64,000 nucleotides of DNA from Cymodocea nodosa (lineage: Eukaryota > Streptophyta > Magnoliopsida > Alismatales > Cymodoceaceae). The translations under genes and the position numbers were made by a program. Shown here one piece after another: positions 30,947 to 38,529 of this stretch. Numbering within the stretch: position 1 is the first letter of the stretch; each line of letters starts with the position of its first letter. Under the pieces are notes generated by a model that saw nothing but the letters and a program-made list of their open reading frames with translations, made no database searches and had not been told where the DNA came from. The stretch is from the NCBI GenBank assembly GCA_036874045.1, contig CM072345.1, forward strand, positions 3,745,501-3,809,500. Direction: 5' to 3'.

Positions 30947-31957
30947 GTGTTTTCTTCTGTAATTGAGAATATGGCATATGCTTATGCTCAAAGATTTCTA
31001 AAACCTTTAATTAGCATATGTGAATTCTGCAATTTTGAAGGACACGACATTTATGATTGTTTGAAATTGAGATATTTACAGATTGTTAGATCCCATGAAC
31101 AACAAATGAATTATCCTCAATATAATAGAGCTGAGTATGAGAATCCTATAGTTTACCCAACTGATGGTCAGTATAGAATGTGTAATATGATGAGAGACAC
31201 TGAAGTTTGGGATAGCTATGACAGACTGGAGCATAGTATAGAGCAAAATCTGGACAAACTGGAATACATTGTGTGTCAACAACAAGAAGTCAACCGGTTA
31301 AACTATAAGGAGGCATATTCAAAACCTAAATAGGATATAATTTACGAAACTGAAAAAGCCATAAAGAAAATTGATCAAAAATTGAATGCAATGAAATTAG
31401 ATGATCTGGAAACAAAATTAAAAGCATTAGACAAAAATGCAATGAAAATACAAGTTTTGCAACAAGACAATAAAAATTATAATGTTATAAACCTGCACAA
31501 CTTGTAAAATATACAACAAATAGAAAACACTAATGTAAGAGAATTTAAAGAATGCACTTTAAAACTAAAAATAATTGAAGATCATAATCACGAAAATGAT
31601 ATACAAAAACATCATGAAAGTAACGAAAATCTGGAAGATGTATGTGTAACATTAAGATCTGGAACTGATATACCATCAAGAACTCAAAATGAAAATGATA
31701 TAAAGGTGGACAAGAGTAAAAATCAAAATGATAATGAAAATGTAATAGCTGAAAATCTAGAAATCACTGAAGAACAATCTGAATCTGCAATTGAAGTTAA
31801 AAATGATCAAACAAATCAACTGAAAGAAAAAGAGTCTTTGAAATCAAAATCTTTAGCACCCTATCCTGAAAGATTACAACAAACAATTCCTGAAAAACAA
31901 GAAAATATCAGAGAAATTTTTGAAAAAGTACAAGTTAACATTCCTTTGTAAGATCTA
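30947..31957 (+). pseudogene. Athila-2 5' gag part: zinc knuckle and LRSG region
   Basis: The reading starts about 90 bases after the primer-binding site, at ATG 30947 or 30971. It encodes a CCHC zinc knuckle (CEFCNFEGHDIYDC, about 31019), a coiled-coil-like acidic linker and the Athila/Tat signature VTLRSG (about 31650), then leads into protease. Stops lie at 31331, about 31507 and 31949. The large capsid domain that should precede the knuckle is absent; it lies behind pol at 37342. Athila-1 (42333) has the same short start, so this is not a deletion private to this copy. Confidence 0.85.
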
Positions 31958-32871
31958 TTGCAAAATATGCCACCTTGTGCTAAATTTCTAAAGGATTGGT
32001 GTACTAAGAAAAGAGAGCGAAAAGTTCTTAGAAAGGTCTTTTTAGCTGAGCAAAGTAGTTCCCTATTTCTATCACAAATTCCTAAAAAGTTATCTGATCC
32101 TAGAATCCCTGTTATATCATGCACCATAGGAAATACCATTCTAGAAAGAACCTTAATAGACTTAGGTGCAGGTATAAATGTTATGCCAAGTGATATATTT
32201 GCATCCTTAGGATTAAAAGGCTTAACTCCTACTAGTACGGTTATTCAATTAGCTGATAGAAGTATAAGATACCCTAGAGGAGAAAAATAGAGGATGTCTT
32301 AATTAAAATCAAGAATTTTATATATCCTATTGATATTGTAATTTTGAATTCCCAACCAATTAAGCATAAAAATAGTGATATATCTTTAATTTTGGGAAGG
32401 CCATTTTTAGCAACATCAGGGGCTGTTATAAATTGTAAAATTGGAGTAATGAAGTTAGCATATGGTAATGAGGATACTCAATTAAATATTTTCAAACCAG
32501 AAAGGTTTCAGGAGTTAGAAATGTCCTTACATACCATAGACTTTTTAGAGGATGAAGGAGATATGTTAGATGATGTGATTCAAGAAGAATTAAATAGGCA
32601 AATCAATTCTGAAACTTTAGAAGAAAGTGAAAGCATAAATATAGAAGGAGATCAGGAAGAAATTAATTTAAAAAATGATGATGTTCAATTAGGAGCTTTA
32701 GCTTTTGATGGGCATCATTTAGAATTAAAACCTTTACCTCCTGAATTAACCTATATATTTCTGGAAGATAAATGGACCTGTCCAATCATTATTGCTTCAG
32801 ATTTAAAAGAGGATCAAATAGCTAAATTAAAAGATGTAGTAAAAAGTTATAAAGAAGCAATAGGATAGACT
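31958..32871 (+). pseudogene. Athila-2 protease and protease-RT linker
   Basis: A retropepsin-like domain is present, with PPCAKFLKDWCTKKRE upstream, the catalytic DLGAGINVMP motif (about 32159, usually DLGASINVMP in Athila) and the ILGRPFLATSGA flap or C-terminal motif (about 32390). A one-base insertion near 32287 shifts the frame. The acidic linker to RT (32520-32868) ends with a stop where a Trp codon is expected (Athila-5 has GWT). Confidence 0.85.
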
Positions 32872-34418
32872 ATGACTGATATAAAAGGGTTAAGTTCGAC
32901 TTTATGCTGTCACCACATATATTTAGAAGAGAATGCTAAACCTGTTAGAATTCTTGAGAGGAGATTAAATCCAAACCTTAAGGAAGTAGTCAGGAAGGAA
33001 ATAGTTAAATGGTTAGATAATGATATAATTTATCCGATTTCTGATAGCTCGTGGGTTAGTCCAATCCATGTAGTTCCCAATAAATCAAGATTAACAGTTA
33101 TTAGGAATGAAAGTCAAGACTTGATACCTACTAGAATTCAATCAGGCTGGAGAGTATTTATAGACAATAGAAAGCTGAATGTTGTGACTAGGAAAGATCA
33201 TTTTCCCTTACCTTTTATAGATCAAATGCTGGAAAGATTAGCAGGGCAAGAATATTTTTGTTTCCTAGATGGGTATTCAAGGTATAATCAAATTCCAGTA
33301 GCATTAGAGGATCAAGAGAAAACAACTTTCACCTGTCCTAATGGAACTTATGCTTTTAAAAGAATGCCATTCAGATTATGAAATGCGCCAGCTACTTTTC
33401 AAAGGTGTGTGCAGGGCATATTTACTGGAATGACTGAAGAATTTTTAGAAATATTTATGGATGATTTTACTGTATATGGCAACTCATATGAAGTGTGTTT
33501 AAGCAATTTAGACCAAATATTAAAACGCTGTGTGGAAAAAAATCTGATTTTAAATTAGGAAAAATGTTACTTCATGGTTAAACAAGGAATAGTCTTAGGG
33601 CATGTTGTTTCTAAAAAAGGGCTAGAAGTAGATAAAGCTAAAATAGAAGTAATTTCTAATCTACCAGAACCTAAATCAGTAAAAGATATTAGATCATTTC
33701 TAGGACATGCTGGTTTTTATAGAAGATTTATTAAAGACTTTAGCAAGATAGCTAGACCTTTAACTAATCTATTAAAAGATGTTCCATTTAACTTTGATAA
33801 AAATTGCAAGGAAGCATTTTTCAGACTTAAGACTAGCTTAATTTCAACTCCTATAATTCAAGCACTTAATTGGAACCATCCATTTGAATTAATGTGCGAT
33901 ACTTCTGATTTTGCTGTAGGAGCAGTGTTAGGACAGAAGATAGAAAAATCTCCTAGAGTGATTCATTATGTAAGCAAAACCTTAAATGATGCTCAAGTTA
34001 ATTACACAACTACTGAAAAAGAATTATTAGCTGTTGTGTTTGCTTTAGAAAAGTTTAGATCATATCTGATTGGAGCTAATGTAATAGTATACACGGATCA
34101 TTCAGCTCTAAAACATCTAATAAAGAAAAAAGATACTAAACCTAGATTGATCCGATGGATATTATTATTGCAAGAATTTGATTTAGAAATTAAAGATAAA
34201 AAAGGTAGTGAAAATGTAGTAGCAGATCATTTATCAAGATTACAAATAGAAAAATCAAATATTGAAATTAAGGATAATTTTCTTGATGAACAATTAATGA
34301 CCATCAACACAATGCCTTGGTATGTAGACATAGTTAATTACTTAGTTACTGGTTTAACACTTAAGGATTGGAATAGACAGGATAAGAAATTGTTTTTCTC
34401 AAGAGTAAAATATTACTA
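32872..34418 (+). pseudogene. Athila-2 reverse transcriptase and RNase H
   Basis: RT begins with the CCHHIYLEENAKPVR block. It has WVSPIHVVP, a FIDNRKLNVVTRKDHFPLPF block (VCIDYRKLN in the minus copy) and the catalytic FMDDF (about 33456), then the thumb with GFYRRFIKDFSKIARPL. RNase H has the YTDHSALKHL and ENVVADHLSR motifs (about 34090 and 34210). Stops at 33379-33381 and near 33556 interrupt RT. A one-base deletion near 34423 separates this part from integrase. Confidence 0.9.
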
Positions 34419-37156: not shown

Positions 37157-37257
37157 GTATGTAATTAATCTTCTGCTATTTATTTATGAGCACATGGACT
37201 CGTTCTCTAAGCACTAAACGATTAGTAAGAACACCTACCTAGGAATTTTCATTGTAG
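37157..37257 (+). other. Probable 5'-UTR intron before Athila-2 gag
   Basis: CTG|GTATGT marks the donor and TTTTCATTGTAG|AGG the acceptor, 101 bases in all. Athila-4 has donor and acceptor at the same places, also 101 bases apart. There the acceptor changed to CGCAG but kept the AG. Upstream exon would be about 37045-37156; the gag ATG is 84 bases after the acceptor. Confidence 0.55.
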
Positions 37258-37341
37258 AGGAATATTGAAAAATTTTCTGAACTGAACTTTAACGAAATTC
37301 TTTGGGGTGTAACTAACCTTTCTTTAAAAGAGAATGTAGAA

Positions 37342-38529
37342 ATGGCTGCACCAGTAGAAAAACCATTAGGAGAGATTCTGTATCCTAAATTAATTGATGA
37401 ACCTTCATGTATTCGATTGCCAAACTTTGAGGGAGATAGGTTTGAACTAAAATCTAATTATATTAGTCAATTGCCACATTTTCATGGATTAGAAAGAGAG
37501 GATGCCTATTATTTCCTTAGAGAATTTAACGAAGTTTGTCAAATGTTGAGAATGCCGAACATGAGTATAGATGCTATTAAACTTAGATATATCCCTTTTG
37601 CTTTAAAAGATACAGCTAAGAGATGGTTATATACTTTATCGCCTGATTCAATTTCTACAGGGACTGAATTTTACTCTGTTTTTCTGGAAAAATATTATCC
37701 AACACATCAAACGATTAAAAAGAAGAAAGAAATATTAATGTGTAGCCAAAAACAGGGTGAATCATTCTGGAAATATTTTGAAAGATTTAAAGATTTACTG
37801 ACTCAATGTCCACATCATGCAATGAGTAAAGCACAATTAATAGGCATAATTTATGAAGGCATAGATGTTTCAACGAAATCTTTATTAGAATCTACTTGTC
37901 AAAATGGATTTTTAAAATTATGTAGTGAAGAAGCATGGGCATATTTAGAGAATTTTGCAAAAAGAACTACACAGTGGGAAAATTCGACAAAAGCTATTGT
38001 AGATAAAAGATTATTGCCAAGAGGAATGCATGAAATAGATTCCAATACTATGCTTGAGGTGAAATTAAATGAATTAACAAAGAAAATAGAAGAGTTATCA
38101 TTAAATCAAAAGCTAGCAGAAAAGAATACAAACATAAATGACTTTGATATTATTTATGCTAGAAACCAGAGAGATAACTTGGGAAATTCTTATAATCCTA
38201 ATTGGAGAAATCACCCGAATTTATCTTGGAGAAACAACAATTTCCAGGGAGGAGAAAATATAAATGAAAAGAACATAAGTTATGAAGTATTAATTGAACA
38301 AGGAGCTAGAATAGAGAAATTAGAAAAGATAATCCAACAAGTAAACAATCGTCTAGAATTTATATTTGGAAATGCTGCAAATCAAAATCAGAATAGAATT
38401 ATATCACTTAGACAGAAGGAACCAATGGAAGTTAGACCTACTGGAGGATTGCCAATACAAGCTATACCTAATCTTGTCAATAGAACGGTTAATGAAATTG
38501 ATACCTCTTCTAGGAGGGCAGCTGAATGA
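37342..38529 (+). CDS. Gag capsid part of Athila-2, located behind pol (intact frame)
   Basis: This is an uninterrupted 395-codon frame, the best preserved gene of the window. It holds the Retrotrans_gag domain (RLPNFEGDRFELKSNYI at about residue 23, LKDTAKRWLYTL at about residue 90, GESFWKYFERFKDLLTQCPHH at about 140). It also has the YNPNWRNHPNLSW and RPTGGLP motifs that follow the zinc knuckle in normal Athila Gag. No zinc knuckle and no LRSG motif are present here; those lie at 30947-31700. The protein would build the particle shell. It is bounded by two intron-like intervals and followed by an F-box frame. Normal Athila elements have gag at the 5' end, so this order is unusual. Confidence 0.88.
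   Translation: MAAPVEKPLGEILYPKLIDEPSCIRLPNFEGDRFELKSNYISQLPHFHGLEREDAYYFLREFNEVCQMLRMPNMSIDAIKLRYIPFALKDTAKRWLYTLSPDSISTGTEFYSVFLEKYYPTHQTIKKKKEILMCSQKQGESFWKYFERFKDLLTQCPHHAMSKAQLIGIIYEGIDVSTKSLLESTCQNGFLKLCSEEAWAYLENFAKRTTQWENSTKAIVDKRLLPRGMHEIDSNTMLEVKLNELTKKIEELSLNQKLAEKNTNINDFDIIYARNQRDNLGNSYNPNWRNHPNLSWRNNNFQGGENINEKNISYEVLIEQGARIEKLEKIIQQVNNRLEFIFGNAANQNQNRIISLRQKEPMEVRPTGGLPIQAIPNLVNRTVNEIDTSSRRAAE

Follow-up and report, generated by a model that had tools for sequence, protein, structure and literature searches.

A 64,000-nucleotide stretch of Cymodocea nodosa DNA (GenBank assembly GCA_036874045.1, contig CM072345.1, forward-strand positions 3,745,501 to 3,809,500; hereafter the window), part of a 374.6-Mb assembly in 28 contigs, led us to an Athila-type (Ty3/Gypsy) long terminal repeat (LTR) retrotransposon lineage in which, as we hold with high confidence, gag lies behind pol. 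The order is LTR, primer-binding site (PBS), a pol open reading frame (ORF) with a short zinc-knuckle domain, the LRSG motif, protease, reverse transcriptase (RT), RNase H and integrase, then often a Transposase_32-like ORF, gag/capsid, an F-box ORF, a purine tract and the second LTR. This full order was assembled from the sequence around scattered copies of the window's family that carry target-site duplications (TSDs). In two diverged families gag likewise stands directly behind integrase, and one of them also shows the 5' end with PBS, knuckle, LRSG and protease. To our knowledge, Gag before Pol has been regarded as a constant of LTR retroelements. An initial annotation of the window had read the reversed order in the elements that we call Athila-2 and Athila-4; the observation is confirmed and its interpretation supported.

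In Athila-2 the capsid ORF indeed begins behind the end of integrase (Table 1), and the 395-codon frame that the initial annotation had described was found with a Pfam capsid match. Seven bases separate the LTR end from the PBS, which was searched for with an 18-mer that we take to be the tRNA-Asp motif. The initial annotation had placed both the knuckle and LRSG directly after the PBS; LRSG lies about 0.8 kb behind it. The RT was assigned by position and reading, the Pfam support covering RNase H and integrase. In an alignment with eight gag relatives the capsid ORF is colinear, stops before LRSG and lacks the knuckle that most of the longer relatives carry between capsid and WRNHPN. Six Smith-Waterman comparisons, against 60 shuffles each, revealed no clear LTR-like sequence hidden between integrase and capsid: the best score of 357 was equalled by 2 of 60 shuffles and the other five by 11 to 53 of 60, and only short CAACGGA palindromes are clearly common to the LTR and this interval. 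Athila-4 gives the same succession on the minus strand (pol, Transposase_32-like region, capsid, F-box) and continues into a purine tract and 3' LTR. The two elements also differ in truncation and accessory ORF, as had been noted: Athila-2 has lost the Transposase_32-like region and its 3' end, the homology with Athila-4 ending at 39391.

A genome-wide search with the capsid gave 7687 first-look candidates and at least 105 scored matches, all near full length and 93–100% identical. From the first 21 rows after the window's own we took 20 copies on 11 contigs, leaving out one on C11, and analyzed the 10 kb preceding every capsid. LTR end, PBS leader, knuckle and integrase precede the capsid in this order and on the same strand in 14 of the 20 (L009–L011, L013–L015, L017–L021, L024, L026 and L027). 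Protease and RT are additionally detected in 12, that is, in all of these except L011 and L021, and the Transposase_32-like ORF as well in nine. Two arrangements had been named beforehand as evidence against a reversed family order. The first, a capsid between PBS and knuckle, occurs in none of the 20 upstream stretches; as for the second, an LTR or PBS between pol and capsid, 17 stretches show integrase followed by the region upstream of the capsid with neither in between, the three exceptions being L016, L022 and L025. A PBS (at most five mismatches) is present in 15 of the 20 stretches and never between a copy's own integrase and its capsid. Some copies are incomplete: L012 has integrase and the Transposase_32-like ORF and lacks the 5' part, L016 has RT without integrase, and in L023 and L028 the LTR start runs into RT or protease. 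L021 has a second integrase piece, from another copy, upstream of its LTR. Wherever a copy among the 20 was read from capsid to F-box, the F-box ORF lies behind the capsid (7 of 7, L002–L008). A check by coordinates only, with at least 105 capsid and at least 150 knuckle rows, yielded 12 pairs of knuckle and capsid on the same strand and no more than 15 kb apart, counting that of the window, all with the capsid downstream, and one opposite-strand pair.

In 13 of the 14 ordered copies (not L020) we analyzed a 2.9-kb stretch about the place where the 3' LTR was expected and, in eight of them, a further 1.3 kb upstream. A complete same-strand 3' LTR end is present in 11 of the 13, and in nine a purine tract precedes the LTR with a junction like that of Athila-4. 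L009 shows no LTR in the stretch read, and in L015 a same-strand piece of LTR passes into an inverted one. The 5-bp TSD is exact in seven of the 13, matches at four of five bases in three and at three of five in one (L013), and two copies are not assessable. Five exact-TSD copies (L010, L014, L019, L024 and L026) have near-full-length knuckle, protease, RT, integrase and Transposase_32-like ORF; the other two have gaps, L017 being without part of integrase and L011 without protease and RT. In 10 of 11 cases the last kilobase of the two LTRs of a copy is 94.8–97.6% identical; the 81% of L014 comes from a comparison spoilt by a length difference. Copies with two LTRs and an exact TSD thus carry pol before gag, which is the outcome that the initial annotation had named as confirmation, and its view of a transmitted family structure, rather than one local accident, is borne out.

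The elements have two LTRs with TG...CA ends, PBS, purine tract and TSD, as LTR retrotransposons do, the domain order protease, RT, RNase H and integrase of Ty3/Gypsy, and the tRNA-Asp-type PBS and CX2CX4HX4C knuckle of Athila. They depart from Athila in that gag is not first in one gag-pol ORF. Nor do they belong with the non-autonomous elements that lack gag or pol: both genes are present in order in 12 of the 20 copies, and gag lies behind the 5' ORF in 38 pairs of a second family (see below). We call them Athila-type only, being alike in sequence and primer type and not in gene order, on a label that comes from the initial annotation and the shared features.

Two sister families, read at three of the loci matched by the gag-protease query P0002 (see below), extend the observation. 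Their capsids are 36–37% (family 2; L051 and L052) and 42% (family 3; L050) identical to that of the window's family. At all three loci integrase immediately precedes gag on the same strand, the gap of about 0.3 kb being too short for LTRs as long as those of the window (about 2.2 kb). The rear Gag ORFs of both families keep a CX2CX4HX4C knuckle, followed in L050 and L052, which were read further, by WRNHPNFSW and then an LPSQ or IPSQ motif. Family 3 also has an F-box ORF, so that two families bear one behind gag. For family 2, a 2.4-kb upstream piece (L053) shows LTR end, PBS with one mismatch and an ORF with knuckle, LRSG and protease. This 5' ORF matches at least 119 places, many of them 97–100% identical, and among the 118 tabulated 17 lie in open frames of 1450 codons or more; one of these 17 matches contains stops. 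The family looks recently active. Among pairs of 5' ORF and gag on the same strand within 12 kb, gag is downstream in 38 of 38, with 30 at 4.71–4.78 kb; of the 67 gag rows, 29 are without a partner among the matches listed, and three opposite-strand pairs occur.

Because the sister rear Gags keep their knuckle and the family-2 pol ORF nevertheless starts with one, the 5' knuckle need not be the missing piece of the rear gag. A gag moved behind pol therefore describes the lineage better than the "split gag" of the initial annotation, the capsid without a knuckle being a trait of the window's family. Relocation of gag behind pol and a later loss of the rear knuckle would fit the lineage better than a single cut. 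In a small Gag tree of mostly unnamed relatives, five pol-gag rows fall on one side of a weakly supported branch (72/71), and one origin is neither shown nor rejected by it.

A family with the usual order did not appear among the matches scored, a capped set beyond which rare copies of that kind may exist. A 385-residue bridge query, reaching from behind the capsid to protease, gave at least 107 scored matches, of which 104 begin no earlier than residue 204, LRSG being at 225, and the other three at 127, 153 and 179. None of the 107 reaches the knuckle (55–68) or WRNHPN (97–105), as a contiguous gag-pol frame from knuckle to protease would. A second query (P0002), a gag-protease protein of 666 residues from another source with its knuckle at 284 and LRSG at 454, gave at least 67 scored matches, all of which end at residue 443 or earlier and hence before LRSG; their open frames span 407–474 residues, mostly 449–474. 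A third (P0003) returned at least 81 rows, 79 with the capsid alone and two forming a capsid/protease pair at one locus (L054).

Among the alternatives, an improbable one is a defective, non-autonomous family that lost its 5' capsid, carries a passenger capsid behind pol and obtains Gag from a normal gag-pol family. Arabidopsis has Athila families without pol that are mobilised in trans (PMC2410132). Many copies here carry stops, and a selection test on eight copies (below) is uninformative, but no normal gag-pol Athila was present among the matches scored, a diverged family of the same order has long open frames and near-identical copies, and gag occupies the same place in three families. Less probable still is that the rear capsid ORF encodes a restriction or control factor and not a structural Gag. 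Ty1 makes a short Gag-derived factor of this kind, and in the window's family the rear capsid is without a knuckle; however, no other capsid that it could control turned up in these copies, and the rear Gags of families 2 and 3 comprise capsid, knuckle and downstream Gag motifs. We give hardly any credence to a local accident, in which insertion of one element into another, or a tandem arrangement with an intervening LTR, sets a second element's gag behind a first one's pol: the window is a nest, with Athila-2 inside a copia, a fold-back at Athila-4 and Athila-1 and Athila-2 both truncated, and one copy in 20 (L022) has LTR pieces between an integrase piece and the rest, but the order recurs at dispersed sites with 5-bp TSDs, the stretch before the capsid has no clear LTR-like sequence, no PBS was seen between a copy's own integrase and its capsid, and all 38 family-2 pairs agree. 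For the window's family, the TSD-flanked copies with pol-gag order have already refuted it.

Selection and expression signals bear on how such an element might work. Between Athila-2 and Athila-4 the capsid has a ratio of nonsynonymous to synonymous divergence (dN/dS) of 0.29, versus 0.85 and 0.95 off frame, and 31 synonymous differences versus 18.9 expected when the differences are re-dealt to like contexts (P = 0.0012). The F-box ORF gives no selection signal in this pair (P = 0.62), and neither it, in the window's family, nor the 5' knuckle region has homologues at E <= 0.001 in a large protein set. Before the capsid, a TATA-like pattern is found in 20 of 20 copies, and consensus intron donor and acceptor patterns in 13 and 15. 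Two features of family 2 were seen by eye: immediately ahead of the gag ATG stands an AG accompanied by a branch-point-like CTGAT, and the pol ATG is overlapped by a GTATGT. These signals suggest a separate Gag mRNA. Gag could be made from it either through an internal promoter, using the TATA-like box and the intron-like stretch before the capsid, or through splicing of the LTR transcript, as for retroviral env. Transcription or splicing would then set the Gag to Pol ratio in place of one polyprotein, a claim, raised by the initial annotation, that is plausible. In the window's family, where the rear knuckle is lost, RNA binding may be provided by the knuckle with which the Pol protein begins. 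A single rearrangement in an ancestor is the likely origin; two tandem elements might, for example, have lost the first gag together with the LTR between them and the second pol, or a template switch might have occurred.

Taken as a whole, we favor, with moderate confidence, a recently active lineage that has reversed the gag-pol order: the full-length RNA would be translated into a Pol that bears its own RNA-binding knuckle, a 3' gene would give Gag through a separate mRNA, and the ratio would depend on transcription or splicing. In the window's family capsid and nucleocapsid would reside on different proteins, and in two families an F-box protein would be made beside Gag, perhaps turning over a host silencing factor.

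Several points weigh against this reading. The evidence is DNA sequence alone, from one genome, and the copies are top-scoring capsid matches, not a random sample. Two of them deviate from the order: in L022, which has no integrase of its own, LTR pieces (69–87% identical) separate an integrase piece of 80% identity from the Transposase_32-like ORF, and L025 (7145–9999, in capsid orientation) has LTR and PBS about 0.4 kb before the region upstream of the capsid and neither knuckle nor pol, possibly as a gag-only derivative. At L054 a family-1 capsid meets a family-1 protease in frame, the only capsid-protease contact among the matches scored; because both partners are of family 1, it looks like a rearrangement. 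The two-sided LTRs and TSDs were demonstrated for the window's family only; the long family-2 frames probably run through integrase, judging from their length and spacing to gag, and the family-3 order was read from integrase onward, not at the 5' end. Neither RT (P = 0.11) nor integrase (P = 0.08) is significant alone in the Athila-2/Athila-4 pair. In eight family copies the capsid ratio of nonsynonymous to synonymous polymorphism (pN/pS) is 0.50, no lower than the 0.39–0.43 off frame, and RT and integrase fail the same control, so the case for selection on the rear capsid comes from the single Athila-2/Athila-4 pair and from ORF conservation across three families. Finally, the splice signals are consensus readings that only part of the copies share, and no strong splice donor was seen in the leader of the window's family.

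Self-comparison and reading of the sequence show that retrotransposons are nested in the window: a minus-strand copia interrupts Athila-1 and itself contains Athila-2. The Athila-1 knuckle follows a decayed PBS as the initial annotation had it, whereas the LRSG claimed for it is absent, because an inverted LTR cuts Athila-1 at about 42706 and leaves only LTR, PBS and knuckle. The end of the Athila-4 LTR is unsure, since the alignment runs weakly into a PBS-like stretch (42706 to about 42733), which we read as a short duplication of the LTR end. At the pol of Athila-4, an inverted, about 91% identical pol piece forms a fold-back (54910–57653, about 1.36 kb per arm, 21-nucleotide spacer), both arms beginning at the same point of the pre-RT region. 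CAACGGA/TCCGTTG palindromes lie at 30480–30564, 36064–36165, 36672–36861 and 38590–38651, that is, in the LTR and the inter-ORF stretches of the window's family, including those before the capsid and F-box ORFs, and the LTR of a copia in the window has a similar palindrome pair built on GGATAGTTA and TAACTCACCGAAA. About 73% identity links the non-coding 3' part of Athila-4 (45087–45891) with the 3' region of each of two copia copies (13887–14662 and 21233–22002), which also carry stretches related to the Transposase_32-like ORF (16506–17002 and 23887–24192); an exchange of modules between Copia and Gypsy elements is possible. A copia gag-pol at 5949–11224 contains a 2.6-kb tandem duplication (97.7% identical).

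Table 1. Coordinates of the Athila-type features in the window and of one sister-family ORF.
Feature	Position	Strand	Remarks
Athila-1 5' LTR, first part	24593..26220	+	Self-comparison and alignment; interrupted by nested copia 26221-41869
Athila-2 5' LTR (TGTTTAG...AAACA)	28668..30831	+	Same kind of termini flank other copies
Athila-2 PBS, tRNA-Asp type, TGGCGCCGTTGTTGGGGA	30839..30856	+	2 mismatches to 18-mer; 0 matches in 100 shuffles
Athila-2 pol ORF start (ATG 30971)	30971..32287	+	Zinc knuckle CX2CX4HX4C ~31022-31063, LRSG ~31655, protease; three stop codons
Athila-2 RT, RNase H, integrase	32872..35618	+	Pfam RT_RNaseH 2e-36, rve 5e-12, Integrase_H2C2 4e-13
Athila-2 region before capsid	36176..37341	+	TATA-like TATATATAT 37014-37022; intron-like GT 37157 ... 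AG 37257
Athila-2 capsid (Gag) ORF, 395 amino acids	37342..38529	+	WRNHPNLSW and GGLP, no zinc knuckle; Pfam Retrotrans_gag E 4e-17
Athila-2 F-box ORF	38718..39218	+	Stop 39216-39218; Pfam F-box E 6.9e-7
Athila-1 LTR end, decayed PBS, knuckle ORF from 42357	41869..42705	+	
Athila-4 purine tract GGTATGGGGGAAG (44952-44940) and 3' LTR from 44939	42706..44952	-	LTR end between 42706 and ~42733
Athila-4 F-box ORF	46705..47791	-	Full length, two stops
Athila-4 capsid ORF	47980..49168	-	Broken
Athila-4 Transposase_32-like region	50447..52780	-	Second copy at ~1-2214 of the window; Pfam E 0.022, far below curated cut-off
Athila-4 pol (part)	53119..56270	-	
Family-3 F-box ORF	L050 3126-3644		Behind gag; 36% identical to that of the window's family; Pfam F-box 8e-6

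Foamy viruses make Pol independently of Gag, as may be the case here, and differ in gene order, which is gag-pol-env. Among plant elements, the published consensus sequences of Diaspora, Calypso and Athila each contain one gag-pol ORF; a tRNA-Asp PBS lies 5 bp behind the LTR in Diaspora and Calypso, and Diaspora has a CX2CX4HX4C finger (PMC1142308). A Transposase_32-like ORF is described in a sunflower Athila (PMC11728184), and extra 3' ORFs are common in plant elements (PMC7264820). With this group the window's elements share the tRNA-Asp-type PBS a few bases behind the LTR, the knuckle, the Gag motifs and the Transposase_32-like 3' ORF (PMC1142308, PMC11728184); they differ in that pol comes first, with a separate gag ORF behind it and, in two families, an F-box ORF, whereas there gag comes first in one ORF. 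The Arabidopsis Athila gag-only elements resemble them in having a Gag ORF without pol in the same ORF, and lack pol altogether, while here both genes are present in reverse order (PMC2410132). BARE, a Ty1/Copia element of barley, makes a spliced Gag-only RNA, so that a separate RNA favors Gag; the effect may be similar here, although BARE does so from one ORF and here gag is a separate 3' gene (PMC3735527). In the open-access literature searched, as far as its available sections go and with subscription journals mostly outside that scope, no report of a gag-behind-pol order was found. The large survey of plants that underlies a reference domain database removed elements with unexpected domain order in every case as likely mispredicted (PMC6317226), so that pol-gag elements would be filtered out by design. 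The pol-gag lineage of Cymodocea nodosa offers a natural test of particle formation when Pol is not fused behind Gag.

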